Source: Gordius sp. MW1
Lineage: Eukaryota > Nematomorpha > Gordioida > Gordea > Gordiidae
DNA: 64,000 nt
Reading direction: 5' to 3'
NCBI GenBank assembly: GCA_964036665.1
Contig: OZ038526.1
Coordinates: 30,256,001-30,320,000, forward strand
This document shows, piece after piece, positions 11,421 through 55,375 of this stretch. Numbering within the stretch: position 1 is the stretch's first letter; each line of letters opens with the position of its first letter. The notes beneath the pieces were generated by a model. The model ran no database searches, had not been told where the DNA came from, and was given only the letters and a program-made list of their open reading frames with translations. A program made the position numbers and the translations under genes.

Positions 11421-11890
11421 TACAGCTTTGTAGATGTTTATCCTGTACACATATACAATAAAAATAACGTTTAAAAATGAACTTCATCTTTTGTTGTTTA
11501 CATGTAACGAAAAATTATAACCCTTTCTACGAATTTTGCCTACCTTCGCTATTAACATCTTTGACTGCCCGTGCATAATAAAACGTTAAATTTATATTAT
11601 ATTCACTTAAAATCCTTGCCATTTAAACCATTTACAATGCTATAAGGCAATTTACAGCTTTGTAGATGTTTATCCTATACACATATACAATAAAAATAAC
11701 ATTTAAAAATGAACTTCATCTTTTGTTGTTTACATGTAAAGAAAAATTATAACCCTTTCTACGAATTTTGCCTACCCTCGCTATTAACACCTTTGACTGC
11801 CCGTGCATTATAAAACGTTATAATTTATATTATATTCACTCAATATCCTTGCCATTTAAACCACTTACAATGTTGTCATTATATAAGGCA
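11421..11890 (+). repeat. Tandem duplication covering the 5' flank and start codon of the micro-exon gene
   Basis: The stretch from 11421 to 11652 is repeated from 11653 onwards with about 232-bp period and few differences. Both copies carry the same presumed promoter/5' UTR sequence and an ATG in the same context (ACTTACAATG versus ATTTACAATG). In the left copy the ATG reads ATG CTA TAA; in the right copy it opens the signal-peptide exon. The left copy therefore looks like a dead duplicate of the start, or a two-codon upstream ORF if transcription begins there. Confidence 0.85.
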
Positions 11891-11924
11891 ATTTTACTGG
11901 CGTCCTTTATTCCTTTACTATGCG
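11870..11924 (+). CDS. Exon 1 of the micro-exon gene: signal peptide
   Basis: ATG opens MLSLYKAILLASFIPLLC, a typical short n-region plus hydrophobic core. The exon ends in one base (phase 1) at GCG/GTAAGA. Exon 2 continues VRAYYTVDDVE, so cleavage after VRA is plausible. The start is chosen because it is the only ATG in frame with exon 2. Confidence 0.8.
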
Positions 11925-14900
11925 GTAAGAATCTTATTTAATCATTTTATTTCTTAAATATTTATGTTGAATTATTGGAGCCATTTTCAACGCTCCACTG
12001 CTTATTACTCTAGTTTAGATTAGATTTAAATTTTTTTTATTTTCTAATGTTATCCATCTGATTTAAGTAACTTTAACATTTAAAAACCGTATTCAACTTT
12101 GAACTTGATTGTATTGTAATGAACACATATAGAGCGCCTTAGTAAATTTATGCCTTTTGACTCAATTTTTTTTATTTTATTTAGTGAGGGCTTATTACAC
12201 AGTGGATGATGTGGAGCGTAAGCTATGCTAATTTTTGTTAAAGAATTGTCACTAAAAAATAAACATTTTTTTATATCATTTTAGAACCGAAACGAATTAT
12301 TACAGGTTTGTATTACTTCACAACGCTTATTTTTTAAGATCTACATTAATTATAACCATTGTTATGTAAAAAGTGCAACTTGGATCTTAAAAGCTTCATT
12401 GTTATTTAAAATAGCTGTCATAAATTCCGTTTGTTTTACCTCTAAATAGGTCTATAAAAATAGAAAAAATATTATAAATTTATAACAAACAAAAAATGTT
12501 TAAGATTTTGTTCAATTTTTTGTTGTTAAGGGGGGGGGGGGGGGGAGAGGTGGGTTGTAAATTTGCTCATATTTGAAATAACCTTTAATGTTTCGGGTAT
12601 TGAATAAAATTGATATTTAAAAAAACTTATGCCAAAAATTAAACAACATTCGCACATTTTTTAGTTGAAATTAGCCAACAAAAAGGTATAGCGCACCGCA
12701 CACTTCATTTTATATTTGTATTATTGATTATTTATATTCCAAAAATTTGACTATTCAACACCGCTCTAAAAAGTGTTACCAAATTATTAGCTTAATTTTT
12801 TTCTTCATGCACAAGCTCTAAGATTTTTCTTGCGTTTTTGCAGGCAGGGAGGGATAGAAATGCTTAATCAAAGCAAAATAATACTATCAATGCTCAAACT
12901 TGTTATCCCTCAAATCCTCACTAAAATTATCGCCAACCATAGACTAATAGACTGCTCATCTCTTATATAATCACGCATCAAAAGTGTTGCCAAAAACGAC
13001 CGCCATTTTGATATGTGAAGTAGAGTTTGTATAGCGATGGATTGTAATGGACAATATTCATTGATCTTATAACATGAAACAACCCATTTTAATCATTATA
13101 GCGATTTTTAAAATTCATCAAACCATATAAATTGGCCAAAATTCATGTTTCACTTTTCAAAATGGCTGCCAAAATGTTGAACACTTTTAAAAGGAAATGA
13201 GCAGCCTATTAGTCTATGTCGCCAATCTACTCTTCTATAATAAACGATGAAAAACAAATTTATTTGCCCCCCCCCATTTATTACCTCTTTCTACGACGCT
13301 GAGGTTTCTTCAATAGGCTCATATTGACTGGAGGGGATCTTAAAATTTAATATTTAGGGCCGGGCAGATCAAACTGCTCTCATGTTTCGGGCGGACACTT
13401 GAAGAGTTCGGGGGGCTCGGGTGGGCAATAAAAAATTGAACGGGTCGCGTTCGGGCCTAAAATTTCAACAAATCTGACCTCTGATGCTAATATGCAATAT
13501 AATCATGGGCGTAGCTGGGGGGGGGGGCGGCTGCCCCCCTCTAAATCCAAAAAATTGTTAAAATTAATTATAATTATGACTAAAATTTTAAAAAATATTT
13601 TGCCCCTCCCTAAATCATTATTGCCCCCTCTAATTCCAATGCTGGCTACGCCCATGGAAATAATCCATTGATATTTGTTCTTTTAATGCCGAAGCTGCTA
13701 TTTGTTTTAAATGACGTGATTGACGGCACTAGTTATAAAAATGTAAACACTATAAAACATTTGCATATTCCTAGGTGGCATACCTATTGCAGGTAAGAAT
13801 GTATCAATTTACAGTACTAAATAATAACAAAAACCAATTTTAATATTGTTATACAGTTCAACAAAGTAGTGACAAGGGTAAGATGAGGATGCAGCAAAAT
13901 TTACAATTTAATAACATAATAAATTTTACATAGAAAACTTAATTAATAATTTATATATATTAGAACTACATCATGTTAGTATACTTAATTGAATTTTTTA
14001 AAATTTTAAATACATTTTAAGGAATTCTTTTCCGTATCCAATCACTGTCTGGTAAGCATTGTTTAATTTATATTCTAATAAAAGATTAATGGTATATTTC
14101 ATGACCAATCACAGAAGAAATGATAATTTAGGGTATAGTAGTTGAAACGTTTGCATGAAAGCCTGTTTAAGAGTAATTTTATCATTTTTAACTTGATTAA
14201 AATATCAATAAGTAGAGGATTTATTATATAGAGTAATAAAATGTATAAATTCAACCATAATCAATTTAATTTTACAAATGATTATTTGTGGAAAAATAAA
14301 GCTTTCAATATAGATTTTAAAAAATTTATAAAGGTGTATTTAAGCGAACGTTATCAAATAATAGAAATTCTCTACTGAAGATTAAAGCAATTAAAACGTG
14401 TTTAAATTAAACGGACATTGATTTAAATATTAAAATCGTGTCGGATTTAACGATTTTATTAGTGAAACATATTAATAACGAATACATAGGCTAAAAGGAA
14501 CAAACTCAAATATATTTTTTAAACTGTGCTCTAATACTCTAATTGATTTTAAACTTATGTGCCAAGGCTAGTCAAACCATATAGTCTAATTTGAGTGTTT
14601 CTTTTAATAGTCTAATAAATTGAATAAAAATTGTATACATCAATAATTTTAATGTGACTATCTTTGTTAACAAATATTGATCATATACAAATATATTCCT
14701 AACACTAATCGTGGAGACTTAATGTATTTTAATTATTATTATATATAATAAACCTCTCAAATATGATATGTTAACTGTTTTAAAAAAGATTTATATTAGA
14801 AATTGTTTAAATGTTATATATTGGGTTAATCAGTCTCATTTGGGCTGTCCCGCATTAACTCCACCCCTTTATTAAGTTTAGATTGAAATTCACAATTTAG

Positions 14901-17900
14901 TGCATCTCACTTTAAAAATGAATAGCGCTAAATTTCACAAGTTGTATATTTTTCTTGAATTTTGGGGATTTTTTCGGATCCTGTTTTTTACACTAAGAAC
15001 TTTAATAAAAGGTAAAGTGTTTTGTAATTTCTACTGACACATCAAGCATTCGAGGCCGTTAGTTATGCTATTGTGCAATTAAGGTTACACATTAAATTAT
15101 CATTCATTAAATTTTATTAACGAGAGTATAATAGCATTTTTGATCTTTAAATAGACACGTACAAAAATTCCTTCACTCTCTTCAATGGTAAAAAATTAAG
15201 TCGGATAAAACTTGTATTGATTATTTATTGTTTATTGTATATAGGCAGAGAGGGATATATTAAAGGTATTTATGAATGAAGAGAATTTTCTAGATTGCTC
15301 ATTATTGTTCTTATGTTTAAAATTTATGAATACTTATTGTGCAGTTAGACTAGTCAATAAAGGTTAGTTTAAATAATTACCTTTTTGCTACAGTCGAAAC
15401 TTCTTAATCGCAAATCGGATTATCGCGAAAATCTTTTAATCGCGAAGTTAACCACCATTTTGTTTTTTTAAACGATAATATTAACAAAAACATCGTGTAT
15501 TGACAAATCGCTTAATAGTACAATATCGGATATTCACAAACATTTTCGAGTCCTTAAATCATTCAGATAATTATATAAAATATCGTTTTATTGCGAAGCG
15601 TAAGAAATGAATATTTAATATAATGTACATATACTTTTATTTCCATCGTTTAATCGCGAAATATCGGTTAATCGCGAATTTTTTTTTATGCCCAAGGCTT
15701 TGCAATTAAACGGTTTTGACTGTATAATCGCTGTTAATGTGTTATTGTAAAACAGGTTGTTTAAATGGGCTTAGCCAGGATTGGATTAAGAGGGGGGGGG
15801 GCAATAAAGATTTAGGGAGGGGCAAAATGATAATTTTTTGAAAGTTTGTCCATAATTATCTTAAATTTTAAAGAATTTTTATATTTATAGGGGGGCAGCC
15901 GCCCCTCTCTGCCACCTTCTGGCTATGCCCATTGTTGTTTAAATTTAATAAATTATTATATCGATATTAGCTTACACAATTATAAATATATATAACGAAT
16001 ATTTCATCATATTTGTGAACTAAAAAAGATTTAGCAAACAAAAGGCGTAAGTTACATTTTTGTTATAATTATCATGTATTCTAGGTTGGTTTTTGAACAG
16101 GAATATTACAATGAAACTTATATATGTCGCCCCTCTACAATTTTAACTTTAAATGAATAAAATTTCGATTATTTTGGATTTTATAAACATATTATAAAAG
16201 ATTAAAATTTAATAACCAATATTGATTTAGGTAAAAAAATACGCCCTTCGGGCGTAACTGGGGGCTTCGCCCTCAGACCCCCTTGAGGGCTTCGCCCCCA
16301 AACCCCCTGCTGCCCCCAGTCCCCGTTGGGGGTCTGCCCCCAAACCCCCGTTGGGGGCTACGCCCCCAAACCCCCATCTCCTGGGGGCTCCGCCCCCAGA
16401 TTCCCGGAGAAGGGGGAGAAGGGAAGAGGGGGGGGGGGGGGGAGGGAAGAGGGGACGACTCATCTATTCTACGTATAAATGTAGCATATTTGCTATGCAA
16501 TTTATGGGCGAGAAAGGTGTGAAGGGGCGAGAATGCCTATAGGGGGTAGGATAATTGCTAGGGTTTCCCCCTTGACTACTCCCATGCTAGTTACACAACA
16601 TAAAAATCTACTTTTTTGTAAAAAAAAATAAAATTCATTTAAATTTAAAACCTCAATTTTACTCGCCGTTTTATAACGTATGTTTTGCATGTGATAAAAA
16701 TTTGAAGAAGAAAAAGATAGTATTTTTTTAATTTGGCAGAAGCTGGCTATGTAACAAGGAATTGTTTTGTAAAATGAAATGTGAATATTAAAATAATCAA
16801 ATATACTTTAAAAATTCTATCAATAATTCAAAAATCCATATTGTCGTAAAGAATGTTTCCAGTTATAACAACAATTATCCTCGTCTAGGTTAGGCTTTCT
16901 TTAGTGTATTACTAATTTTATATTAATTTAGTTGCTAAAATATAAAAGGCAAGGAGGGGGTTATAAAAATAACCAGGTCAATTGATGAACCTTAAATTAA
17001 ATTCTGGCTACTACTATTAATATAAAACTATTGGTATTCTCTTCCATATATAAATCTTTTCAATATCCATGTAAATATGATGACGTATTATGCATGTTTA
17101 ATGTTATTACTACATACTAAACTCGGCATAAATAAATATACGCCCGAGAATGCCAATATTGTGAAATAATCTTCATCTCCTCCACTCCCGCCCCCTAGCG
17201 GTGGGCGGATAAGAGAGGAAGATAGGGGTAGGGGTTTAACCTTGGCATAGCGCCATTGAAAAAAAATCAATATAAAATGACGAAGGAATAATTTCCCCCT
17301 TTCCCCTTTTAATTGCTATATAATAATAATTCTAATATATTGATTATCTAGTTGTAATTTTCAATTATGACAACTGCAATTTCAAACCTAAATATTAGGT
17401 TAATTTTAAGTGTTAGAAAATAGTTTCAATTAAAATAACAACAGGCGGAAATTAGAAATAATAAAATTAATTAATCAACTTTTTAATAATAATAGAGAAT
17501 TGGATTGCCTGTTACGACCGCACATCTAAAAATGATAAAATTTAATAACTTACTTTTGGTAAATGTAAAATGTTATTAAATTGGGATAATTCCTATTGTG
17601 GCTTATAATAAAAAATTTTGAAAATAAAATTTAAATATATAAAAATGCGTTAGATATTAAAAAATATGACTTTTAAAAATAAGATGTAATAATAATTAGA
17701 TTTATTAATAAGATATCTAAAAATAAAATAGTATAGATATTCAAAAATGGTATAAGGCATTTTTTTCATTGGTCAGCAGCCAGGACAGGGTAGAGGTGGT
17801 TATAAATTCATAATAGTCAAAAAAACGAAAAAATAATTTTCGAATCACATTTTTGCCAATGGTCATTTTTTTCATTGGTCAGCAGCCAGGACACGGTAAA

Positions 17901-20900
17901 ATTGGATATAAATTTATAAGAGTCAAAACAAAAAAAAAAAAAATTTTCGAATCACATTTTGGCCAATGGTCATTTTTTTTATTGGTCAGCACCCAACGGA
18001 CTGCCAAAACGTCTTATTATCAATGGTAGTAACAAGAACAATCATAATAGTCGAAAAAAAACGAAAAAATAAACTTGGATTCACATTTTGGCCAATGGTT
18101 ATTTTTTCCATCGGTGAGCAGCCAACGGACGGCCAAAAAGTCATAATAACATTGGTAGTAACAAAAACAATCATAATAATTAAAAAAACCGAAAAAAATA
18201 ATTCCGATTCACATTTTGGCCAATGATCCTTTTTTCCATTGGTCAGCAGCCAACGGACGGCCAAAACGTCATAATAGCATTGGTAGTAACAGGAACAATC
18301 ATAATAATCAAAAAAAAAGAAAAAATAAACTTGGATTCACATTTTGGCCAATGGTCATTTTTCCATCGGTCAGCACCCAACGGACGGACAAAAAGTCATA
18401 ATAGCAATAGTAGTAACAGGAACAATCATAATAGGCGGAAAAAATAAACTTGGATTCACATTTTGGCCAATAGTCATTTTTTCCATTGGTCAGCAGCCAA
18501 CGGACGGCCAAAAAGTCATAATAGCAATGGTAGTAACAGGAACAATCATAATAGGCCAAAAAAAAACGAAAAAATAAACTTGGATTCACATTTTGGCCAA
18601 TGGTCATTTTTTTCATTGGTCAGCACCCAACGGACGGCCAAAAAGTCATAATAGCAATGGTAGTAACAGGAACAATCATAATAGTCAAAAAAAACCCGGG
18701 ATTCGAACCCAAAAACTGGTTAAATTAACAAAAATTAAAAGTAAACAAAACAAGACACTCGGTGCGTGACATCCACGTTCGGTGCGTGACATCCACGTTC
18801 GGTGCGGACGCCGAATAGCGTGACAAACAAAATGGAAAGTGAGCCCATAAATTGCATAGCAATTAATAATGACAAAATTCATGATGAGTTGGTTAAATTT
18901 TATAGAGATATACTTTTATTTTTGCAAATTAGTGGTGTTTTATATGAAAATGATACACGGAAGTAAGTTTAACGTTTATGCTTGGTTATAATAAAATATT
19001 TAATAATACTATTTTTCAATCAAGTATTGTTCCTGAAAGTTGATGGTAATATTAATGTCATTTTAAGTGGATACTAAATAAATTTGCCGGTAATTTAGAT
19101 ACTCTCGAGAAAAGAGGTAACATAAGACCCAGAAAAATAGACTTTTCATTAAATTAATTCTCTAAGCATAGTTTTTATTACAGTTTATTAGAGCAGTTCC
19201 AAACCTTTTAGAAGCGTTTATTTTGATTTTGCAGACTCTGAAAATTATAAAACGCGCTAAAATTAATAATTAGCTTATTATTAAATAACTTAAAGTCTAT
19301 TATAAGAAATTAATCCAGAATGTTTATTTCACATCCAGCTAAATACACTTTAATATATGTTCCTCTGATAAATATATATTATTATTTGTCTATTGTCTTC
19401 TAATAATAAATGAGGGTGTTAACCTACGCGAATCATTTTTTACAGACTATATTAGTTAAAAATAAAAAGATTATATGCACATTTTTCTATTAAAATAAAA
19501 ACACTACTTAAAATTTTATAACAGAGGGAAGTTATGCTTTCAACAGAAACATAGGTAAGCCCAACAACCCATTTTGGTTAAAAGTTGTTGGCCGTTTGAA
19601 ACAAAAAAATTTCTAAATATGCAGGGATTATATTGTAACCTCACTAAATATAATGATAGTTTAGTCGATCGAAATAATTTTAATTCACATAAAATAAATA
19701 TTCAATTTTGTACGTTATATATATTTTTATTATTTAGATTACAGTATGTCTTTTAAGATTACGTTTTAGCGTTCCTTATGATAGCTTCGTTTTTAATATA
19801 ATGTCAACCATTTCAATTCAACTAATATAAAGATATATAAGTTGCAAACACTATTTATATTTGAAAATTTATATTTCATAATTTAAACATCTTAGAATAT
19901 TATAATTATTTAAAAATTAAAATATACGTTTTAGTAAATTTCACACACTCCGATGTTTATGGTATATCCAACAAGCTATAACATATATTTAAATTTGAAA
20001 TAAATATTTAACAAAAATATTTTTGAACATATATATTAAGTTTTATAAGATAACTTTATAAAATTCAAATGCGGTAATGCTTTTATTTAACATACCGTTT
20101 TAGTTCAAATCAATAAAAATATGGGTAGATGTTATAAATTTATATAAAAATATCTTGTTATTCATACAAAAACATTTTTAAGCATACCTTAACACGCTAT
20201 GACCATAAAGGTTTAGTTTATGGGTAGGAGAAAATTTAATGTTCACTTAAATGAGTGATTGGTCTCGAAAATTAGACTCCTTATTTATCAATACATAATA
20301 ATACCATGAAACCTATTTGGCAGGGTATTAGTTTTAATTGAAGTCCATATTAATCGATTCTATTAAGCAAGCTTTGTTGATTGGATCATTTAGTACCATA
20401 CCATACAAATTCCACCAAATACTGATTAATCCTCCAGAGTATTCCTGAAAATCCCAAACGCGAGAGCATTCGTGGGGTATAACTTTACCCCACTTTTTAA
20501 CTTCTTATAACTTTAAAAGCATTCTTTCAAAACCTTTCACATTTAAAACATGTGTTTATAAAGGTCTTAAGATTAATGGTATGAATTTTGATATGAATCA
20601 ATTAATATTACAAAACTTATTAACAATTTTCTGGACACCAATTTTTATTTTGGTTATTTTAGAGCTTCCCCTCATTTTACCTCTTGACATCATTTACCTC
20701 AAAATAAAACAAAATAAACGTGATTTTTTATTAAAAGAATGTTAAAAATGTATTAAAAACACAAATTGTAAAAGATATTATCTTACAAAAATAACACATA
20801 CATTTTTTAAACTAAAAAAAACTTACGTAAGAGCATTCGTGGGGTTAACAGAACCACACGAGCCAAAAAAGCTTATATTTGAAAAAGTACTAAGCCAAAA

Positions 20901-23900
20901 CCTATGAAATTTTCACCTAACCTAGTTCTTGATAAATTAATCAGCTACTAAAAGACCAAATTCATTAGACTTAAATTGCGTATTATATTTTAATTTATAA
21001 TTTGCGTGGGGGTTCGAAATACCTTACGAATACTCTCGACGGTTAAAGGCTATTAAATGTGTGAATTCTTGCATCCATTTACAAATTAAAATTTATTGCA
21101 TTACTTGAAAATTAATCAATATAATAAATTTGCATACTTTATGTTAATCTGGTATTATATGTAAATACTCGATAAATTATTTTAAATGTTCGACGTGTTA
21201 TTATTGCATAGACTCTTAATTGTATCAGCTAGTTTTAATAATTTATTACACTTTTGGAATAGGATTTAACTATATAAATTAAAAATGGTAAATTTTTGAT
21301 TAATAGGCCTTAAATCAGTCAATATGTTTGCATCGCCTGATTGGCGCCTAATTTATGATATCATGCCTCTGGGTAAATGAGCATTGAATCTTTTTTAAGT
21401 AGCAATTGTGAAATCACTTGCAAAATTTAATAAGTATATAACAAACAATTTTGACTTTTTAGTTCCATAATTACATAGTTTATAAAAATGTGTGTAATGA
21501 AACTTACGTTATTTATATTTATACTAATCATCTTGCTGCAATCGTAGCATTATAGAGACCTTAAGTACAATTAATTCAAACAAAAAGCCTTATAGTGAAT
21601 AAAACAAGCGAATTTGCAACAAAACATAACACTTTAATATAAGACCAATCTATACTTTTGTTATTATTAACTCTATTAAATAATTAACAAGTTTATTTTT
21701 TATCTAGTTTCATGGGCAATTCAAGATGCTACTGAATTACTGAGTATGGAATTATTTTAAAAATTATAAAACGATTGTACCAGGCGCGTAGCCAGGATTT
21801 TCTCAATGGGGGGGGGGGAAATTTCAAAAATTTTAAGAACTTCATCGGGAGTAGGAGCTAACTTCCGATGAATTGTCAATAAAGCCAATCCATTTAATCT
21901 ATTCTTAGACATGGTATTTCTAATGTCAGTTTTTAGCCTCCTCAGCGTTGAGAAGCTATAAAAAAATATTTTTAATCTTTGCCAAGGGGGGGGGGAATTT
22001 CCCGTTCCCCCCCTTCCCTTATTTACGCCACTGGATTGTACGCTTCAGATTAAAGCCATACTTATTTTTATATATTTTATAGATGCGACTTTGCTTTCAA
22101 CCAGTTGTAATAGTAAAGGAAATGCTAACCAATGTAAATTTGGCACGCAATCAAGAACATGCCAATGCTCTGGTATAGTCACAATTATTTTTTAATTATA
22201 AAATAATAATAACAAATTTTATTAATATAGGATGTCGTCCGCAGGAAGATTTAGCATTATACGAGGGTGAGCGGTTCATTATCCATAATGAAAATGGGTG
22301 TATAAAAGTCTCAAAAGGTAACATACATTTTAGCTGGGGATGTCATTCTCTTTAGTCTATATTTATACCTATCCCGTTGAAACTAATGTGAGTAAAGTTT
22401 TATTCTAGTAATTAAAAAATGTGTGCCACAATGACTACAAATGTTACATTTATCTATACATTTATTATAATAATAATAGACCAAAATATTAGAAGTAAAA
22501 TTATAATGTACTAATTTGTTTAAAAGAATATTGATGGCTAATAAAATAATTTAAACTTACAAATGTTAAATACTCATAAACATGTTTAATTATTAGAAAA
22601 TTATGTGTTAATATTATTTTGTACCTCATATCTAGTAGAATAATCTAAATATAACGTTTTGTATAAATATTTTTTTACTAGTCTTATTGCTCCTCTGCAT
22701 CAAAAGAACCTCCTAATTGCTGGTAAAAATTAATTTAATTTGCCAAAACGTAATAAAGGGATCACTTGCACTGCACTTTGACTGTTTTAATACACTAATT
22801 TATATTAATTATAAATTTATAATTAAAAATATTCGTGTTTAATATATAATGAAAGAACAAACAAAATCGCAGCTAAATTTTTAGACTTAACTGGCTGTTG
22901 CAAATATTAGCATTTTTTTGGGTTAAAAAGTTTATTTTCACGAAACAAAGTTACATATATAAGCAAAATACAAAAATAAAGACATATTGGTTAAAACAAA
23001 GATCTATATCTTCATCTTCTAAAATGGGCCATGAGTCGGAAAATGATTTAAAGTTCTATCGTACAACAAGATTCCATAGTTGTTGCGAAAAAATGTCCAT
23101 AATATTTAGATAGGTCTAGAATAACCATAGCACTCTGTTGATTAGGTTGTAACTTAAACGATTAAAAGCTACGGATAAGTTTAGGGTTTGTATTAAATTT
23201 TTATTAAATTATATCAAATAAGCGCTAAAATACGATAGGCATACAAATATCAAAAGTTAAAATTAAGGTTCTCAGGATTCTTTTACCATTTGTCAATGTG
23301 ACCAACCAAGGGCAAATATATAATTGTAATCGCCCTAGTACTTGGTGCTGATATATTTTGCAGTTGTTTGGACTTTCAAATAATTTCTTTAAGATGTAAC
23401 TATCAACGTTCTTATAACCTGATAATTAAAATATTTGTAGCAAAACTCACGTATTTAATTCAAGACACGGGCGTACCCAGGGGGGGCGCCCCCCTTATAT
23501 TAAAAAAAAAATTAATACAAAAACCCTTAGAAATTAAAAAAATATGTTTTGCCCCCCCCCCCTAATTAGCCAGAGGGGGGCAGCCGGACCCCCTGCTCCC
23601 CCCTAATTAGCCAGGGGGGGGCAGGGGGTCCCATAATAAATATTGCAAATATTTTTGGTAAAACGTTAAATTTAAATAGAGCAATTTATAATATGTAAGT
23701 AACGAATATAGAACCAAAATTAAAATGGGCTGCATTTTTTATTGCTTTTAAATTAAAGCTGCGATTAGCTATTCAGCTTAAAAATATAAGGCAATGAAAA
23801 AAGTGACTAAGCCGAAATCCCACAAATCGCCTTAAAGATTAAAATTTTGATACCGCAAGCGTTAACAATACTAATAGCATCAACAATATACTAATTTCAT

Positions 23901-26704
23901 TAATAAAAACTATCCCGTCTAAAACTCCATATAAAATATGCTACTATCAATCACGGGTTGCTATCAGTCAGCGACAATAACTGTTTTCTAATGGCGAAAA
24001 ATATACAAAAACTAGAATTACAACATCTTAAATTGTCAATTAAATCAAAGCGTCATTCAATTATAAAAGTTATAATTCGGCCTAAAAGGTGTAATAGATA
24101 GTCTGCACAGAATCTAACATGATATAGAGACGAGAAAGAGCCTAGTTTTTTAAGATATATAATTGAGGCATAAACATGAGATGAAATAAGCTTAACTGAA
24201 TTCATTTTATACCCGAGAGAAGGAAAATGGAAAAATACAAAAATACCTCAACAATTTCATTTTGGTCCCAGTAGGGCCACGACCCTCGGAACTTAGGTCC
24301 CGAGGGTAGCCAATTCCTTAAACAAATATCAAAACATAGTACATCAACTACACAAGACCCCAAATATTTGTTTGATATTAAGCAGAAAATCACCATGAAA
24401 ATTGTAAATCCGATACAATTTTGATCCATGGCTCTTTCATTAATTTAATACATTTTAGCATGTATCAATGACAATCATTTGGAATAAACCTCTATTACTT
24501 AAAAGACTTATACGTATTATCGAAGCTGAAAAGTTTCATCTGCCTAAGCCCCCTGAGCTGCTATCATATTTATTTTGAAAATATAAATAGGTGTTGGACA
24601 TTTTAAATCTTTCACATGTCTAAACAAAAAAGTAAGATAATTGTTATAAAAACATTTTTACTAAAGGTCACAGAGCTAAAATATGAACATTAGTAAAGTT
24701 TAATTACTCAAGCCGAAGACAGGAGCTATGAGGGGGCAAACATTTCAAAATTTTTTAAGTCATTTTATAATGACATAGATAATTTGTAGACGAAAAAATG
24801 ATTATTCTTCTCATATTGATCCAAATTAGACCAATTATATAAATATTAATGATTGGCAATAGAAGTTCTAAAATTTAAAATTATTTTACAATCTTAGTTA
24901 TACTTTGTTATAATGTTTTAATCCATTCACAATGATTTAGGGGAAAACCCAAAATTGCCAAAGTCCGTTACTTTGCATTTCAACTAGGCCCAAGTACATT
25001 TCAATCTTAGATTTCAATATATTTAATAAAATCCTATCAATTTTTAGCGTTAGAGTTTATTCAAGAAGCTTATATCGTGTTAATAAATGGGCAATACGTT
25101 TTAATGAAGCCAGAAAATGGATATGGAATGGTAAAAAATTATTATATCGATATATTTTTAACAAAATTATTTTTGAATTAGTTTTATAAGTCAATATATC
25201 ATATATTATCTCAAGGGCAAGTTTTACAAAATTAAAAAAAAATTCATAAGGTGAAGTGAGGTGTTTGCGCAACGTTGGGTTATAATTAAAGCCAGTCTTA
25301 TGTCCAAATGTTGTTTATCCACCCCAAGTTGATCACAGGAAAAATACTTGCGACTTAAAAAATAATGGCTCATTTTGGTAGAGACTGATCTGTTGAGAGA
25401 AAAGACTTGTCTGACTACAAGCTACCATCCTAATATACATTTTAATTAATCCAAATCACTATTAAAGTTTTAAGGTATGAGGCTTTGACACACAACAAAG
25501 ATTTTAAAGCTAGGGGGAATTTTATTGGCAGAAAACATAGGTATGCCGAAAATGATAGCTTAATTGAAATATCTAGTAGGTTTATCATCTTTTTTTCATA
25601 TCGTTCCGTTAGCCAAATTACTTTAGACATCCCATGTTTTTCCCATAATTTTCAATTAACCAAGTATAATACATCTTGTAAGATAATGACGCCATTTGTT
25701 AAACTTTATCTTTTGCCCACCATCTTATATTCGTTGTATGGTTTGGACCAAAATCTATCAATATACCATGTTCTATCTCCTGTGTCACCCTAAAAACCTC
25801 TTTGAAAGGCTTAACGGGCGTATTATGTATAATAAGGCAAAAGAAGTAAGACCAAGCATTGGTTTGATGGTAATTCTTTAAAGTTTGAATAATTAAAAAT
25901 ATGTTATTTTGAAAATATGCTTTAAGAAAGTTTTAAAATGTCCTTACAAGTCTGGCCTCTTCATTATTCGCGTTGTAATAATTTAACATCGCACTCATAG
26001 ATGGTCATCGCGACAATTATGCTTATCACAGATATGATTTCGGGGCATTTCGTGTAGGTGTCTATTGCAAAAATTTTCATAGTCTTGTACAAAGGCATGG
26101 CTGCAGCCAGGGACCAGGAAGAGGCAAAAGTCTCCCATCTAAATATATTTACTATAATAATGGTTAGGACATCAAAAGACGTTTCCTTGCCCTTATTTGA
26201 TGTGCATTTTGGCTAAGTCCATTTACTAGAATGTTTACAGATCATCTGTTTAGTATTAATTGTACCATTAAACCATTGTTAACACCTTGTAAAACAACCA
26301 ACCCCTTACTTAAACTGCCTTCAACATCTCTTTGACTTTAGTGTTTAGAACGCGACACATTACAGCTTTAGCTGAAAATGGTCATTGAACAGAACAATAA
26401 ATTTTTTCTAGGGAAAGGGGTGGCATAAGATAAGATATGAACTTTAATTAATAAAATAATGCAATTTGCCTTTATATTTAGAGGCGCTTGCCCGAAATAT
26501 TTTTTGTACTCTCTTTGCTTAAAACAAAGTATTAATAAATTCAATTGATTATTTTAGATTTGCCCAAATGATCCAATTTTGAATATTGATGGAACTTGCA
26601 AGTGTGGTCATTTGAACATGCCAAATAAAAATATTCCAACCTATTTCAACATGTGGCATAAAACGGAAGAAAATGTTATTGTTTCCTTAACACTTCAACC
26701 ATAA
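11870..26704 (+). CDS. Micro-exon gene for a secreted cysteine-rich protein (17-exon model)
   Basis: Exons: 11870-11924, 12185-12217, 12285-12305, 13775-13792, 13857-13877, 14022-14051, 15155-15187, 15245-15265, 15345-15362, 18933-18962, 19525-19554, 21319-21372, 21708-21743, 22083-22172, 22231-22317, 25048-25130, 26558-26704. They sum to 807 nt, a 268-residue protein plus TAA. Every intron has GT/AG ends. Fifteen introns are phase 1 and the last is phase 0. Exons 2-13 are 18-54 nt and all are multiples of three, so any can be skipped without frameshift. The protein starts with a signal peptide and ends with Cys-rich segments. No homologue is recognised. The architecture matches the micro-exon genes described in schistosomes, whose variably spliced products are secreted. 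Weaker members of the model are exons 7 and 12; some micro-exons may have been missed. Confidence 0.8.
12185..15362 (+). CDS. Micro-exon cluster, exons 2-9 of the micro-exon gene
   Basis: Eight exons of 33, 21, 18, 21, 30, 33, 21 and 18 nt encode, in order, RAYYTVDDVE, PKRIIT, GIPIA, QQSSDK, ILFRIQSLS, TYKNSFTLFN, REGYIK and RLVNK, each preceded by one residue whose codon spans the junction. All keep the same phase, so the order of peptide blocks is freely combinable. Donors are strong (GTAAGC, GTAAGA, GTAAGC in exons 2, 4-6). Most acceptors follow a T-rich tract. Confidence 0.75.
12938..13218. mobile_element. hAT-type MITE (CATAGACTAATAG family)
   Basis: Terminal inverted repeats CATAGACTAATAGACTGCTC and its near-complement at 13199-13218 enclose 281 bp of non-coding DNA. 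The flanks TCGCCAAC and TCGCCAAT form an 8-bp target duplication with one mismatch, typical of hAT elements. A second copy is at 54748-55193. It lies in an intron of the micro-exon gene. Confidence 0.8.
13504..13656. mobile_element. GGGCGTAGCC-type MITE
   Basis: CATGGGCGTAGC at the left and GCTACGCCCATG at the right form inverted ends around a G-run, an AT-rich core and a C-run. The same plan recurs about a dozen times in this window. The related element at 21781 shows that the family is hAT-derived. Confidence 0.75.
15391..15722. mobile_element. pogo/Tc1-like MITE with TA target duplication
   Basis: The ends are CAGTCGAAACTTCTTAATCGC and the complement of GCAATTAAACGGTTTTGACTG, flanked by TA on both sides (15389-15390 and 15723-15724). 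The 332-bp interior repeats AATCGCGAA-like motifs and has no ORF. Ends beginning CAGTCG/CAGTCA with a TA duplication are characteristic of pogo-group mariner relatives. Confidence 0.75.
15765..15934. mobile_element. GGGCGTAGCC-type MITE with perfect 8-bp target duplication
   Basis: ATGGGCTTAGCCAGG and GGCTATGCCCATTG are the inverted ends. The flanking octamer TTGTTTAA is perfect on both sides (15757-15764 and 15935-15942). An 8-bp duplication supports a hAT origin. Confidence 0.8.
16225..16555. repeat. GC-rich array of hairpin units joined to a family repeat tail
   Basis: Between 16240 and 16410 at least five units of about 23-30 bp repeat the pattern GGGGGCTNCGCCCCC followed by AAACCCCC. 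Each unit is a near-perfect hairpin. They are followed by G-rich purine sequence and then by the same CTATGCAATTTATGGGCGAG tail that ends the heads of the composite repeats at 42.5, 56.5, 58.4 and 61.9 kb. In a genome this AT-rich the block stands out strongly. Four overlapping ORFs here are products of the low-complexity sequence, not genes. Confidence 0.8.
16556..17751. other. AT-rich intron sequence
   Basis: This lies within the long intron between exons 9 and 10 of the micro-exon gene. No micro-exon in phase 1 was found, and no transposon ends were recognised. Confidence 0.5.
17752..18712 (+). repeat. Satellite block A (TTGGCCAATGGTCAT family)
   Basis: About nine tandem monomers of roughly 105-125 bp share GGCCAATGGTCATTTTTTCC followed by ATTGGTCAGCAGCCA, then either a GGACACGGT or a CGGACGGCCAAAAAGTC variant, then an A-rich stretch and TCACATTTT. 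The block ends in CCGGGATTCGAACCC, the reverse complement of a Pol III B-box. It sits inside an intron of the micro-exon gene. The ORFs read from it contain the repeat in all frames and are not genes. Confidence 0.9.
18755..18870 (+). repeat. Short tandem repeat and family end sequence after satellite block A
   Basis: A 20-bp unit CGGTGCGTGACATCCACGTT is repeated about 2.5 times from 18759. It is followed by GAGCCCATAAATTGCATAGC, the common right end of the composite repeats. It takes the place that (GGAC)n repeats hold in other copies. Confidence 0.7.
20449..21045. mobile_element. Putative MITE with GAGAGCATTCG inverted ends
   Basis: CGAGAGCATTCGTGGGGTAT at the left is matched by the complement of the sequence at 21018-21040 (CGAGAGTATTCGTAAGGTAT on the minus strand). 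Both ends are followed by a CCCCAC motif. A direct copy of GAGCATTCGTGGGGT lies inside at 20832. No ORF and no clear target duplication were seen. A related piece is at 28929-28960 inside the Helitron. Confidence 0.5.
21781..22033 (-). mobile_element. Short hAT element with transposase C-terminal fragment
   Basis: The ends CAGGCGCGTAGCCAGG and TTACGCCACTG are inverted repeats flanked by the perfect octamer GATTGTAC (21773-21780, 22034-22041). On the minus strand 21990-21840 reads SFSTLRRLKTDIRNTMSKNR and then LNGLALLTIHRKLAPTPDEV, the hAT dimerisation region that closes many animal hAT transposases. This ties the GCGTAGCCAG end family to hAT. The element lies in the intron between exons 13 and 14 of the micro-exon gene. 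A second left end of this family is at 62058-62092. Confidence 0.9.
22083..26704 (+). CDS. Cysteine-rich C-terminal exons 14-17 of the micro-exon gene
   Basis: Exon 14 (90 nt) carries SCNSKGNANQCKFGTQSRTC followed by QCS. Exon 15 (87 nt) begins GCRPQEDLALYEGERF and holds another Cys. Exon 16 (83 nt) switches the phase to 0. Exon 17 has ICPNDP and GTCKCGHL and then the stop at 26702-26704, with AATAAA at 26739. The spacing with repeated CxC and GC pairs suggests EGF- or EB-like disulfide modules in a secreted protein, but no named domain could be assigned. The regular exons here are longer than the upstream micro-exons. Confidence 0.75.
23471..23645. mobile_element. GGGCGTAGCC-type MITE, G/C-run variant
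   Basis: GGGCGTACCCAGGGGGGGCG at the left is followed by an A-rich core. Two repeats of CCCCCCTAATTAGCCAG and GGGGGGCAG come at the right. No coding sequence is present. It is in the long intron between exons 15 and 16 of the micro-exon gene. Confidence 0.55.
25440..26420 (-). other. Possible relic of a coding element, minus strand
   Basis: This stretch is richer in G+C than its surroundings. On the minus strand around 25890-25680 there is a 60-70 codon open run with a protein-like feel (TPVKPFKEVFRVTQEIEHG, then a Trp-Trp pair) ended by scattered stops. No family was recognised. It could be a decayed transposase or retroelement inside the last intron of the micro-exon gene. Confidence 0.3.
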
Positions 26705-27890
26705 ATAAATAATAGTTAATTATAACATATTAACTTCAAATAAAATGTCTCAAACACATAACGAAATTGATTTTTTGCAGCCTCAATTAAGCAGCTTGTA
26801 CAATAACATGATATCTTTAAAACAAGTTATAGAGGAGGTAAAAATGTAAGCATCATGTTACCCCAAGGAAAATGTTTTAAATTTTATAAAAAAAAAATCT
26901 CAGATATTCAAATCGTATCAATTAAAAGATGTGACCTCATAAATTTTATAATTTGAAAATCTAAATTTATTGCGTCTGGTAAAACTTTTTAAGTTACGAC
27001 TGGTTTAAGGGGAAGCGGCGATGCGATTTAGAATGAATGGCTTGGTTCAAATTGCTTGTAAGAATATTAATGTATAACTCAATAACACAATGAAAAATAA
27101 CACCAGCGAAATAGTAAAATGTGTATTTTTTAATCAGTTTTCTAGATTTGTGAATTTATAGCTATTAGTTTACATTTAGTGGTTATTAAATGTATCGATA
27201 CAATTTTTTATATTCATTTTTAAGACTTATTTAGTTTAAGTTAATTATATAAAATTGTAATCATTTGCGACATTAGAAAATAATTGATTAGTATTTACAG
27301 TGTGAAAAAATAAGATTGAAACGAGGCTAAAGCTAGGCTAGATTTAAGGGGATAAATTAAATTGTAGTATATAGAGTAACCTTCCGCCCGCTGATACAAG
27401 GATTGTTCAGAAATTTATTAGGCATGTATAATTTGTTAATGAGTTTCTTTGAGTTGAGGTAAAGGATGTTGGTTTTACGGGCAAATGATTGAAGGGTTGG
27501 AGATTAAAAAATTGATCGATGACTACAAAAAGTGAAGGATTTTCGTGGGTCCAAATCGTTATCAACGCTAACGGGATTAAGTAAATAGCGTACTCAATGA
27601 AGATCATATCGTGATTTATACAAATGGTAAATGTATTAGAATTGAATAACTGCTTATATAAGGAAGGATTTATAGAGGATTAAGGATCACAAGGTAACAC
27701 TCTGAAGAGAAATCGCTAGGAAACATCGTTGACTTATGGATATTGAAATATAACTTTGCGGAAGGAAAAAAGTTATGTGCCTGGAATTATAGATACGAAA
27801 TGCAAAAGGAAACATGGGCAGGCGTATTTAATAAAATAAAGAATGGATATGATTAAAAGGCGGAAAGGTTATCAAACATATATCGATATA
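26705..27890. other. Intergenic AT-rich region
   Basis: It holds the presumed 3' UTR of the micro-exon gene (AATAAA at 26739). Nothing else is recognisable before the Helitron left end. Confidence 0.5.
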
Positions 27891-28404
27891 TCTATGTATA
27901 TAAAAATCTAAGTCCCTTTTTTTGAACGCTAATAACTTTCAGAGTTCTCAACCGATTGCCACCAAATTTGGCCAGATTATATCCTTAGCATTGTAGATGG
28001 TTTATAGATACTTTTTATCGACCTGCGACAGCGGGAACCATGTTTTTTAATTTGGTTGGCGCCATCTAGCGGACGTCAGCTACAACGCTTATCTCGATTA
28101 TTATTTTATGTTAGAGTTGTGCTCATAGTTTTAAACCTTTTTCTACTAATCTTTTATCACATATTTCACTATTTTTATTCACCTTTGGATTATCTTTTAC
28201 ATTATATATATATCAGTTACAACTAAATAATTAAAAACCGTAATCAAAAATTTTATAATATATAAAAGACGCGTTCTCTGTTAAAAGTTTAGGTATCTAA
28301 ACGTTTGACGTAAAAATATTGTTATAATAATCAAAGCGCGCATCAAGAGACTACTCATTATACGTAAACACGTACCGAAAAAAAGATGCCCGTTTTACCG
28401 CCAT

Positions 28405-28892
28405 CTTGAACATTATAAAAAACGCATCTGGTAAGTTCGGTAAGTTATAAAATTGTTATATATATCTTATTCTTTCAGCTAAAAGAACTACAATGAATTC
28501 TTTAGCCAGCCCACTTCAAGATATTACAAATAATTTCTCCATATGTTGGCTTATATTTCTGAAAAGTCTAAACCCAAGAACACAACACATCATGCATTAG
28601 AAACAACTGAAATCACTGCTGTTCAAGTAACCTTAACAATTTTATATTCTTGAACATTATAAAAAACGCATCTGGTAAGTTAGGTAAGTTATAAAATTGT
28701 TATATATATCTTAATCTTTCAGCTAAAAGAACTACAATGAATTCTTTAGCCAGCCCACTTCAAGATATTACAAATAATTTCTCCATATGTTGGCTTATAT
28801 TTCTGAAAAGTCTAAACCCAAAAACACAACACATCATGCATTAGAAACAACTGAAATCACTGCTGTTCAACTAACCTTAACAATTTTATATT
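28405..28892 (+). repeat. 244-bp tandem duplication in the Helitron 5' region
   Basis: Copies at 28405-28648 and 28649-28892 differ at only a few positions. Each contains ATGAATTCTTTAGCCAGCCC, which starts the reading frame MNSLASPLQDITNNFSICW, so the putative N-terminal start of the Helitron protein is present twice, at 28493 and 28737. The near identity shows that the duplication is recent relative to the element's other decay. Confidence 0.9.
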
Positions 28893-38381: not shown

Positions 38382-40326
38382 TTAATAACTATTGTATTTT
38401 TTAAAAACATCCATAGGTACTTCATAGATATTTTCAGAGTTATCATTTTCGACATAATCCATTGATCTTGTAGAGCCTAAAATAGTTTCGTAACTTTTCA
38501 TTTTTTCCCTTTTTAATGTTTCATTCATAACAATTGGGCACGATGTTTGACTAACGTAGCAATTAGGGCCAAATCTTCTAACACCAAAGCTAAATTCATT
38601 GATGTTACCCTATATAAACATTTATATAATATATATGTGATCTGTTAATCAATCTTAGTTTATTCCACAATTTAAAAGTAATGTAAGTAAATCTACTATC
38701 AGCACTTTTTATATAAATAAAATTTGTTTTCAAACGCCATAAACGATTTATAATGTGATACTTGAGTCCAAGAACTTTTAACGGGAAACGAATGATTTCT
38801 AGCTAATTTCGCATTTTCTTTTAATAATATACCATTGACTGAAGTTTTATAATCACCATTAAAATCTTTCTTCACATCCAAATCCGACTTTTGCGTCTAA
38901 AATAGTTTAAATATTAGTATATCAGCCTAATTAATTAACTCTTTAAGCCTTGAAGTATTTTTATTGTTAATCTAGATAAGTTTACCTTTCCTCTATAGTT
39001 GATTAAATGATGTGTCTTAGTTGACAATATGTAATATATTGCATAAATCACCATAATTTAAATTGTCACTATTTACACTTAAATTGACTATAGTGAACGT
39101 TTATATACAATAGCTAGGGGTGTAGAGCTCATGTCTTAATAACAAATCGCAATTTTTTAACTAAGAATTACGATCCAACTCCTTTATACAAATTAAGATT
39201 TAACGAAATAATGAAAAACAATGTATTGATGCTAGCAAATGTGTTTCTATATATAATATAGTTTTAATCTAAAGACCGACAAAATACTTGTGATCGTAAT
39301 TAAATAATGGCTCAATAATTTATAACACCTATATTCTATACAATTTTCAAAATTTCCAACCTTATTAAACAACGTTCCATTAGGTTCATAGAAAACAAAT
39401 ATATTGCTTACTTTTTGATTAATTGCAGGTCTCCGACAGGATAAGCTTAAAATAGCCATCATCATAACAAAAAGCAAGATCCCCGATCCTAATAAAGTTG
39501 CACTAATTAATACACTCTTTGAGAAAGCTCTCCAATTCGTCTTCAAAAAACTCCAATTCTTAAGCACCAGGCATTTGTTTATCTGGCCATATAAAATATT
39601 ATGATTAGCAACATGGATGCTTTCATTTCCTATATCAATATTTCTATTCAACGACCAGCATATAAAGCTCGATAACGAAATGTCCTTATCTGTGTTTTTT
39701 CCTATTTTAATGGCCACAATTGACATATCATTATGACCGATAGTTAAGTTAATAGGTTTTTTCTGCAGTTGAAATTTAGTTTGATTGTAATTATCTTCCT
39801 TTCCACAACAAGTATTGGTGACGTTTAACAAAGTCTTATTAATATTATGGTGTAAAGAATTTTGATTTTGTATTAGGGCTTTAGTTAACTGCTGCCTTAT
39901 AATGTAATGAGTTGTGGTTGCAGTAGGGTTGACATGTGTACTATTAAGCCATTTATCATTATTATGTGCATATATTTTGAATTTTTTAATAAAAGAATTG
40001 CTATTTCTGACGAAGTTATTGCTATAATTGAATTGTAGTTTCGGAAAATCCGGACCAACTTTAAATTGAGTTGAATCAGTTGGAATGATGCTGAAGGAAT
40101 TTAACAATGAAAGGTTTGTTTGAGGATGTACCTTTTCGTATTTAATTTTATTTGTTAGGAAAACATTTTAAAATGGTACTGAATGTATGTTAAATTCTTT
40201 ATTATAACCCATTACCTGCATAACCTTGTTGTTAACATTTAATAATGAGTGATATTTCAGTTTAAATATTAGGAGTAGACTATTAAGCAAAAATACATAA
40301 ATTCGAAAAGTATTTAGGTAAAACAT
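38382..40326 (-). CDS. Type I membrane receptor-like protein with tyrosine-rich cytoplasmic tail (4 exons)
   Basis: Model on the minus strand: exons 40326-40216, 40131-39361, 38896-38762 and 38609-38382; every junction is phase 0 and the total is 414 codons plus TAA. Exon 1 encodes a signal-peptide-like MFYLNTFRIYVFLLNSLLLI. Exon 2 holds an ectodomain with about eight or nine N-glycosylation sequons (NLS, NYS, NST, NKT, NVT, NQT, NLT, NES, NWS). A transmembrane helix follows at about residues 243-269 (LISATLLGSGILLFVMMMAI), then CRR. The tail carries SYETILGS, MDYVEND and NIYEVPMD, candidate phosphotyrosine sites, YEVP fitting SH2 binding. No family was recognised. Donors at exons 2 and 3 are good; the acceptor of exon 2 (GAAAAG) is weak. 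Confidence 0.65.
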
Positions 40327-41937: not shown

Positions 41938-42477
41938 TTTTAAAACAAATCGCAATTTATCTTAAAATGTTATTCAAAACGTATTTTAAAGTAGGTTCAA
42001 ACAATAACATAATGTGGACGTGTGGCTTAGGATAAGGCTTCGGGCCAACCAGTCTATGACAAACTAACTTTTCCATAGGAATTTTAAAATTGGAAATTTC
42101 AAAAGTTGAGTATTGACCTAACAGAGGCTAGTTACCTAGAATGGAGATTTACAAAAGGGTTTTTCAAGGTGGCCTATATTTTTTCAATCTCATTCTCCGC
42201 ATGGATGACGGTAAGATCTCACTAAATTTGGAACAATAATTCAACTAGGGGAGCGCGAGTTGAAATTTAGTAATCAAGGGAGCTGGGTAGAGAGTAGTAA
42301 AAAGCGTGTGATTTTTACGGTAGCTAACTGCTTCCCCTCCCTTCCTCAATATATGCACAGTTCCAAGGCATTTTAAGAGAGGTAATTAATTTTAAATGCT
42401 GATTTGGTGTCAATACTTAAATTTCAACTAAAAAAGGAGATATAAGACATCTAAATAAAACGTATGTAAATAAAAAA
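41938..42477. other. AT-rich spacer
   Basis: No gene or repeat was recognised. It precedes the second composite repeat. Confidence 0.4.
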
Positions 42478-44262
42478 CTCGGGCCTTCGGTCCTCGTGGG
42501 AAGGGGGAGAAGGGAAGGGAAGGGGGGACGACTCATCTGTACTTCGTATAAATGTATCAAATTTGCTATGCAATTTATGGGCGAGAAAGGTGGGAAGGGG
42601 CGAGAATGCCTATAGGGGGGTATTAAATGCCTAATGATTAATTAATTATTTATACAAATTTTCCATTATAGGCAAAATGTAATATACGCAAAATGTAATA
42701 TAGGCAAAATGTAATATAGGCAAGGGTTAGGGTTAGATTTAGTGTTTGCATCTAGTTGCGTATTACATTAGTTTTTATGGCCTTTAGTGATTATGGGTCT
42801 AACAAACATTATATTATAAAACAACACAATGTTAAGAATTTGCAGAATTGTTGGGAGAAATTTTTTATTGAATTTGAACAATTTTTAATTAAAAAAATCA
42901 AAAATTTGGCCAATGGTCACTTTTTCTCTATTGGTCAGTACCAACAGATACTCTATAAGTCAATGATAGCCAAAAAAACGGGAAAAAAATTTTGATGCTC
43001 ACTTTGGCCAATGGTCATTTTTTTCCATTGGTCAGCAGCCAGCACACGGTAAAAGTGGATATAAATTCATAAGAGTAAAAAAAACGAAAAAAAAATTTTC
43101 GAATCACATTTTGGCCAATGGTCATTTTTTTCCATTGGTCAGCAGCCAGGACACGGTATAAGTGGATATAAATTCATAATAGTCAAAAAAAAACGAAAAA
43201 AAAGTTTTCGAATCACATTTTGGCCAATGGTCATTTTATTCCATTGGTCAGCAGCCAGCGGACGGCCAAAAAGTCATAATAGCAATGGTAGGAACAGGAA
43301 CAATCATAATAGTCAAAAAAAACGAAAAAAATAATTTCGATTCACATTTTGGCCATTGGTCATTTTTTCCATCGGTCAGGAGCCAGCGGACGGCCCAAAA
43401 GTCATAATAGCAATGGTAGTAACAGGAACAATCATAATAGTCAAAAAAAACGAAAAAATAAACTCGGATTCACATTTTGGCCAATGGTCATTTTTTTCAT
43501 TGGTCAGCAGCCAACGGACGGCCAAAAAGTCTTATTATCAATGATAGTAACAAGAGCAATCATAAGAGTCAAAAAAACTCCGTGATTCTAACCTAAAAAC
43601 TAGTTAAATTGCATAGCAATTAAAAGTAAACACCTTTTATTTATGTTTATTATATAACATTGGTCAGCAGCCAGCGGTCGGCCAAAAAGTCATAATAGCA
43701 ATGGTAGAAACAGGAACAATCATAATAGTCAAAAAAAACGAAAAAAATAATTTTGATTCACATTTTGGCCAATGGTCATTTTTTTCATTGGTCAGCAGCC
43801 AGCGGACGGCCAAAAATTCTTATTATCAATGATAGTAACAAGAACAATCATAAGAGTCAAAAAAACTCCGGGATTCTAACCCCAAAACTAGTTAAATTGC
43901 ATAGCAATTAAAAAGTAAACAACTTTTATTTATGTTTATTATATAACTAGTTAAATTGCATAGCATTAAAGTAAACAACTTTTATCTATGTTTATTATAT
44001 AATAGATAATTTAACAAATCTTATATATAACACACCGAGGGAGATAAAGATGAGGGGTGGGGCACCTCTTATGCATTAATTTTAAAAATAACACAGCGAG
44101 GGAGATACAGATGAGGGGTGGGGCACCTCTTTCTCATGCATTAATTTAAAAAATCGATAACCTAATATACCCAATGCAAATAGATAGGAGGGTAACGGAC
44201 GGACGGACAACGGACGGACGGATGGACAACAAAAAACGAGCCCATAAATTGCATAGCAATTA
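42478..44262 (+). repeat. Composite repeat B: hairpin head, telomere-like motif, satellite monomers, B-box, tail
   Basis: Order: hairpin CTCGGGCCTTCGGTCCTCG (42478), G/A-rich arm, TTTGCTATGCAATTTATGGG (42561), three GCAAAATGTAATATA units (42670-42720), GGGTTAGGGTTAG (42725), the complementary GCGTATTACATTAG (42757), and then satellite monomers (42905-43575 and 43665-43870). CCGGGATTCTAACC, a mutated B-box complement, ends the second set. The tail has AGTTAAATTGCATAGCAATT repeats, two GAGGGAGATA...GGGGTGGGGCACC units, (GGAC)n at 44195-44225 and CCCATAAATTGCATAGCAATT at the end. Copy D at 56.5 kb follows the same order with high identity, so this is one amplified unit. Confidence 0.88.
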
Positions 44263-54309: not shown

Positions 54310-54747
54310 GTATGAAAAAGCTTTCATTATTTTTATAATTTTATTAATATAGCACAAAAATTGCGAGTTAATATGTCGGCTTTAAGTTGATAATATCCAG
54401 GTCAATTCTTGTTTTTTTATCGATTCGAAGTTTGAATCTGTACGTTATGTTAATGTAAAATGGCAAACGTGCATTTTTTGAACACCTTTGATTTGCTAAA
54501 ACATTACGAGAGAAAGTTAAAAAATTTATTTAACATCATACATTTTTCCAATTTGAGGGTCAATTTAGTTACAATTTAAATGAATCATGAGCAATGGAAA
54601 TGGTTAGGTTTATAATGGAAATTATATAAGGTTACAATTGAACTATGGTCTAAATAGACTTCTCATTATACCTTTAAATGGCCAATCTTTATTATTTGAT
54701 TCAACTTCTAGTCAAGAATTTTTTACAAGTTTATGCTTAGATATAAC

Positions 54748-55193
54748 CATAGACTAGATAGACTGCTCATCAACGCACAAAATGTGTACCCTTTTTTCCA
54801 CCATTTTGAAACGAGAATTGTAACGTTGTGAGCATATAAAAATTAGTAATTTTCGCAAATTAAATAATTTTAAAAAGGTAAATAAAAAAATATTAAAGTG
54901 GGTAGATATCAAAAAAAGCATTTTAAAATAAATATCATTTAAAAAATACATAAAAATTAAAAAATGTAAAAACTGCGATTAAAGTTTGTTTAATAATATA
55001 GTGCCATCAATATTTTGTATAATATTAATTTATTGACCTTTTATTAATTTATAAACTAGTGAGGAAGGTAAATTGACTGTTATAGGGCAAAATTACAGGT
55101 TAAAATACACCAAATACACTCTTCAAAATGGAGGAAAATTAGACACACAATTACCCATATTCAACATATGCCATGAGCAGTCTATAGTCTAAG
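54748..55193. mobile_element. hAT-type MITE, second copy of the CATAGACTA family
   Basis: Ends CATAGACTAGATAGACTGCTC and the complement of GCAGTCTATAGTCTAAG. The perfect octamer GATATAAC flanks it (54740-54747, 55194-55201). The 446-bp interior is AT-rich without a credible ORF. It is longer than the copy at 12938-13218. Confidence 0.85.
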
Positions 55194-55375
55194 GATATAA
55201 CACAACAGAATATTCATTGCTATGCAATTTATGGGCTCGCTTTTGGTTGTCCGTCCTTCCGTCTAACTCGGCATTTTTCAAAAATTGCCGTGGAAACTTA
55301 TACGGGTTTTTAATGGCTGTGGACTCACACATTTTGCTTTCGCAAATAGACAAGCTAATGACCGCTGGTTGGCTT

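Follow-up and report, generated by a model that had tools for sequence, protein, structure and literature searches.

Predicted Exons at the Locus

We analyzed a stretch of 64,000 nucleotides (the window), in which G+C content is about 0.33 and the CpG observed/expected ratio is 0.87. From the sequence, we rebuilt a chain of 17 predicted exons on the plus strand between positions 11870 and 26704 (Table 1). Joined together, these exons form a single open frame of 807 nt that encodes 268 amino acids, contains no internal stop, and ends in TAA. A first-pass annotation had proposed seventeen exons in one 807-nt frame, and our chain agrees with every number given there. It is probably, not provably, the same set; exons 10 and 12 were selected so that the total fits.

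The last intron of the model is in phase 0 and the other fifteen are in phase 1. As had been proposed, exons 2-13 (the micro-exons) are all multiples of three bounded by phase-1 introns, and none of their 4096 inclusion patterns breaks the frame. When exons 14 and 15 were also allowed to vary, all 16384 patterns for exons 2-15 stayed open.

The predicted exons differ in the quality of their splice sites. The strong part of the model consists of exon 1; exons 2, 4, 5, 6, and 11, which have GTAAG donors; and exons 14-17. Exons 3, 7, 8, 9, 12, and 13 are individually weak, as their donors depart from consensus. Exon 10 may be part of another small exon or element. An ATG lies upstream of it at 18832 on the plus strand, in a frame that, by eye, runs as far as the exon 10 donor at 18962.

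Both ends of the predicted gene are flanked by candidate signals (Table 1). Of the 134 TCANTY sites on the window's plus strand, 3 are preceded by TATAAA at a distance of 20-33 nt. In the partial promoter copy that lies farther upstream, AATAAAA replaces the TATAAAA of the near copy, and the frame that follows stops early, as judged by eye. The introns also contain repeats, namely a tandem array of 107-130 nt units at 17.76-18.70 kb and an inverted pair at 13.52-13.60 and 15.83-15.91 kb.

Table 1. Predicted exons and candidate signals of the gene, in window coordinates
Feature	Position	Strand	Length (nt)	Remarks
Upstream partial copy of promoter and start codon	11420-11639	+		Direct repeat, ~232 nt spacing; D3 95%, D6 94%
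TATA-like box TATAAAA	11809-11815	+		29 nt before A of initiator-like TCACTC
Initiator-like TCACTC	11836-11841	+		32 nt before ATG
Exon 1	11870-11924	+	55	ATG; hydrophobic signal-peptide-like start; donor gtaaga, phase 1
Exon 2	12185-12217	+	33	Strong
Exon 3	12285-12305	+	21	Acceptor good; donor gtttgt weak
Exon 4	13775-13792	+	18	Strong
Exon 5	13857-13877	+	21	Strong
Exon 6	14022-14051	+	30	Donor strong; acceptor aag
Exon 7	15155-15187	+	33	Weak; donor gtaaaa
Exon 8	15245-15265	+	21	Weak; donor gtattt
Exon 9	15345-15362	+	18	Weak; donor gttagt; smallest G+C step
Exon 10	18933-18962	+	30	Donor gtaagt; competing acceptors 18906 and 18933
Exon 11	19525-19554	+	30	Donor strong
Exon 12	21319-21372	+	54	Weak; donor gtaaat
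Exon 13	21708-21743	+	36	Acceptor strong; donor gtatgg weak
Exon 14 (A)	22083-22172	+	90	Symmetric phase 1; five Cys, whole or almost
Exon 15 (B)	22231-22317	+	87	Symmetric phase 1
Exon 16 (C)	25048-25130	+	83	Phase 1 in, phase 0 out
Exon 17 (D)	26558-26704	+	147	Cys-containing C-terminus; TAA
AATAAA poly(A)-like signal	26739-26744	+		3′ of stop; another AATAAA overlaps the stop at 26704

Strong Splice Sites and G+C Content of the Micro-exons

The first-pass annotation had argued that an accidental origin of the micro-exon series was improbable, while each single micro-exon was weak evidence. We scored strong intervals, for which we required a length of 15-60 nt, a GTAAG donor, and five or more T among the 13 bases that precede the AG; the array at 17740-18830 was masked. 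These thresholds were our own choice, and looser ones dilute the signal. On the plus strand between 11925 and 22060, all eight strong intervals had a length divisible by three and an open phase-1 frame. Such symmetric phase-1 intervals were rarer in both comparison sets: in the 27-64 kb region, with the two strands taken together, they numbered 4 of 28 (Fisher p = 1.6e-5), and within 11925-22060 itself the minus strand had 1 of 7 (Fisher p = 1.4e-3). One of the eight intervals, 15567-15599, lies by eye inside an apparent mobile-element repeat, and two others have a common donor at 18962. After the repeat interval and one member of this pair were dropped, 6 of 6 remained symmetric in phase 1 (p = 1.6e-4).

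Other settings gave results of varying strength. Symmetric phase-1 intervals were 9 of 10 with four T and GTRAG donors and 8 of 15 with lengths of 12-99 nt; with GTRAR donors they were 10 of 27, compared to 5 of 36 on the minus strand and 49 of 209 elsewhere. A splice scan with stricter acceptors returned 8 candidates. When GTAAG donors were combined with at least six T, we observed five intervals, while 40 runs of first-order random sequence gave a mean of 0.25 and a maximum of 2.

We also searched for the best chain of exons with any phase allowed. This search picked solely phase-1 symmetric exons, among them a 63-nt interval, 13358-13420, that is outside the 17-exon model. At one penalty, 1-2 of 60 random sequences scored as well as the chain; at a stricter penalty, where one to six exons were kept, 2 and 10 of 60 did so. 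Thus, the chain-search score beats random sequence only modestly.

Base composition provided a further measure. The G+C content of the twelve micro-exons is 0.386, compared to 0.217 in their 60-nt flanks, and the difference between exon and flank is positive for all twelve. Only 5 of 20000 random sets of twelve, drawn from 454 control intervals elsewhere, reached a step of this size. As a set, the twelve micro-exons have an exon-like G+C step.

These results bear on two alternatives. One is that the chain arose by chance in AT-rich DNA or is the remains of a dead gene, as might be suspected from the many candidates that loose rules return (30, with 21 expected). We consider this very unlikely, given the strong-site statistics and the G+C step, a frame that is open throughout, and the presence of both promoter and poly(A) signals. 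The argument against an accidental origin holds for the strong core, which is beyond chance (8 of 8, compared to 4 of 28 and 1 of 7). It does not extend to each weak exon: because the donors of exons 3, 7, 8, 9, 12, and 13 are weak and looser rules dilute the signal, these exons are supported as a set and not individually.

The second alternative is a real but smaller gene, in which exon 1, the GTAAG micro-exons, and exons 14-17 are true, while several of exons 3, 7, 8, 9, 12, and 13 are accidental intervals or have different boundaries. Half of the twelve micro-exons have weak donors, comparable intervals are common elsewhere (the 49 of 209 with GTRAR donors), and the stricter chain search retained few exons. 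On the other side are the G+C difference, positive even in the weak exons, and a weak internal alignment, suggestive at best, that spans exons 6-12 (described below). We judge this smaller gene to be an even prospect. The locus very probably contains a real gene with a micro-exon core that encodes a secreted orphan protein, and the chances that the full set of twelve micro-exons is correct appear about equally balanced.

The Predicted Protein

The annotation had also described a signal peptide and a Cys-rich C terminus on either side of the symmetric micro-exons, and the predicted protein has this layout. By inspection of exons 1 and 2, its start resembles a signal peptide, and the VRA that precedes YY in exon 2 is presumably a plausible cleavage site. 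Cysteines occur at residues 18, 142, 151, 160, 162, 165, 187, 222, 234, and 236. Residues 19-141 are therefore Cys-free, with nine of the ten cysteines falling after this stretch, in the second half of the gene. Simple propensities tilt toward strand over helix (mean Pa/Pb values of 1.00/1.09 and 0.96/1.02), which is weak evidence.

In agreement with the earlier report of a protein with no recognizable homologue, searches with pieces of the protein gave no credible match in Pfam, NCBIfam, or PDB, where the best PDB hit had an E value of 0.61. A tblastn search for paralogues within the window found nothing better than E 0.40 outside the gene.

When the protein was compared to itself, exons 6-12 aligned weakly with exons 15-17 (score 35). 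The same score was reached by 22 of 1000 shuffles, by 62 of 1000 exon reorderings, and by 29 of 1187 decoys, the latter being the stop-free ones among 3000 drawn. When the best cut of the protein was taken, 21 of 300 whole-protein shuffles matched the internal-alignment score. A duplication that relates the micro-exon half to the C-terminal half is suggestive at best.

Comparison with Schistosome Micro-exon Genes

The first-pass annotation took the exon plan to be the defining one of schistosome micro-exon genes (MEGs). In the passages of the MEG literature considered here, ~80% of MEG coding sequence lies in symmetric exons of 6-36 bp (PMC5825161), most MEG exons are 15 bp, and the signal peptide is followed by the motif FL-phi-phi-F-x6-W (PMC10526429). 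Like these genes, our locus combines a signal peptide, symmetric short exons, and long introns and encodes a secreted orphan, but its micro-exons are longer (18-54 nt) and its C-terminal exons are larger and Cys-rich (compare PMC10526429 and PMC5825161).

Three features set the locus further apart. Internal exons of at most 36 nt account for 291 of 807 nt, or 36% of the coding sequence; none of the 15 internal exons is 15 nt, the modal MEG length; and the MEG motif is absent from the protein after the signal peptide. The window also contains Helitron and hAT domains, which are unusual for schistosomes. The signal peptide, symmetric short exons, long introns, and a last exon that is not micro would suit a MEG from a blood fluke or one of its close relatives, but on these grounds we consider that reading extremely unlikely. 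In addition, passages of one study report that transcript databases for other trematodes and for cestodes yielded no MEG orthologues beyond the blood flukes (PMC5825161). As passages of a second study describe the same plan as the defining one of bicycle genes (PMC9168663), we rejected it as non-specific for MEGs. The comparison with MEGs is fair in outline; filing the gene as a MEG is not supported.

Phase 1-1 symmetric exons also occur, as exon-shuffled modules, in ordinary extracellular proteins, and in this respect the predicted secreted protein is similar. Those exons, however, are far longer and encode whole domains, while no known domain was found here.

Comparison with Bicycle Genes

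Bicycle genes of aphids, phylloxerids, and scale insects are described, in passages of Stern and Han (2022; PMC9168663), as having ~17 exons on average, unusually small internal exons that nearly all begin at codon position 2, and products with a signal sequence. The same passages report that bicycle homologues outside aphids lack obvious CYC motifs. Our locus resembles these genes (Stern and Han, 2022; Bhinderwala et al., 2026; PMC13041983) in its ~17 exons, tiny phase-1 internal exons, signal peptide, and orphan sequence. All 15 internal exons of the model begin at codon position 2; as phase was used in choosing the model, the 8 of 8 in the model-free check is the independent figure.

We applied the published logistic classifier of bicycle gene structure, with coefficients and a cut-off of 0.72 taken from PMC9168663, using exon lengths and phases alone as input. 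The 17-exon model scored 0.995. Reduced models scored 0.991 and 0.90, and a strict 10-exon core scored 0.67, which is under the cut-off. Because the classifier learned from a single aphid, with that aphid's other genes as the contrast, a positive score does not separate bicycle genes from other micro-exon families.

There are also differences. Unlike bicycle genes, this gene carries its second half in exons of 83-147 nt, has a phase-0 last intron, and, downstream of the signal peptide, confines its cysteines to the second half. No C..Y..C arrangement with gaps of 0-3 residues occurs in the protein. Because the N-terminal half has no Cys after the signal peptide, we see no evident counterpart of the aphid arrangement, in which each half carries a distributed C-Y-C motif. 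Moreover, the fold of bicycle proteins is saposin-like and helical, whereas the propensities here tilt, as weak evidence, toward strand.

On balance, bicycle genes appear to match the structure better than schistosome MEGs do, a claim of resemblance and not of membership. A true bicycle-family homologue, in an aphid, phylloxerid, adelgid, or scale insect, is conceivable but unlikely. The structure, signal peptide, and classifier score point toward it, and the reported non-aphid homologues without obvious CYC motifs (PMC9168663, in the passages cited) would accommodate a divergent member; the lack of a sequence match, the different Cys pattern, and the half of the coding sequence in 83-147 nt exons point away.

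Another reading, likewise unlikely, is that the gene belongs to a so far undescribed family of micro-exon secreted proteins that is independent of both known ones and comes from a different group of animals. Neither known family fits fully, and Pfam, NCBIfam, and PDB returned no match, as this reading would predict. However, we have a single gene, a search of viral contigs with the C-terminal piece found no relative or related locus, and fast evolution alone could mask homology to bicycle genes. To our knowledge, secreted families with this unusual plan come from only two lineages, represented by aphid gall proteins and the secreted proteins of blood flukes, and both are lineages of parasites of animals or plants. 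We are doubtful that the gene represents a third independent origin of phase-1 symmetric micro-exon secreted proteins, in an animal outside both the blood flukes and the sap-sucking hemipterans, with a modular micro-exon front and a fixed Cys-rich back.

A Model for the Gene and Its Product

The explanation we prefer is an intact gene with a bicycle-like plan whose secreted orphan product acts, after release from a gland, on another organism; in our estimate it has an even chance of being right. Under this explanation, the plus-strand gene would encode a secreted protein of up to 268 amino acids. Exon 1 would supply most of the signal peptide and exon 2 a plausible cleavage site. Short multiple-of-three exons between phase-1 introns would make up the front half of the mature protein, and four exons of 83-147 nt, which hold nine of the ten cysteines, would make up the back half.

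The present plan may have arisen by duplication of small symmetric exons, and it could have been retained as single exons were gained, lost, and swapped without a break in frame. As single exons would be exchangeable in frame, the protein could change fast. Since the structural plan is that of bicycle genes, the likeliest job of the product would be that of a gland-secreted protein acting on another organism; both gland expression and the target are what we infer from this likeness. Variable isoforms are possible as far as the frame is concerned. In the passages of PMC9168663 drawn on here, neither alternative splicing nor isoforms nor skipping come up, so variable isoforms do not necessarily follow from symmetric micro-exons.

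Whether a further micro-exon case or a divergent bicycle gene, the locus would help to test whether symmetric micro-exons offer a general path to secreted proteins that change fast. The case also indicates that strong splice sites and phase can expose such genes without RNA or homology.

Other Features of the Window

Rfam and tRNA scans of the window returned nothing. A short open stretch lies immediately downstream of the gene: at 26745-26845 on the plus strand, an ATG 40 nt past the stop opens 33 codons that extend to a gtaagc donor. Searches with this stretch gave matches at chance level only. It may be the opening exon of a neighboring gene that follows at a very short distance, which would hint at compact or operon-like packing. 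At 28404-28892, just before a Helitron-like element, a tandem duplicate (98%) of a 244-nt unit is present; the unit includes intron-like sites and an ATG.

Two open stretches lie together on the minus strand. The first, 39247-40167, encodes 306 amino acids, in which we noted 10 N-glycosylation-type sequons as well as a hydrophobic segment that looks membrane-like; the second, 38385-38609, is downstream of it and contains the tyrosine motifs YETI and YEVP. Neither matched Pfam, NCBIfam, or viral contigs. Together, they perhaps represent an orphan membrane protein or the envelope of an element. On the plus strand, several stretches within 52920-56210 are open and have the composition of a normal protein (53627-53881, 54132-54335, and 55379-55747 among them). 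They resemble exons of a further gene, or what is left of one, and had no match in Pfam, PDB, or viral contigs.

Two repeat patterns recur 8 and 5 times within the window; they were found in 0 viral contigs and, in slightly shortened forms, in 0 contigs of the prokaryote collection. Two segments ~14 kb apart, 42472-44000 and 56494-58000, are 95% identical across 1.5 kb. Both hold 107/128-nt tandem arrays, which also occur at 17.8, 45.6, 59.5, and 61 kb.
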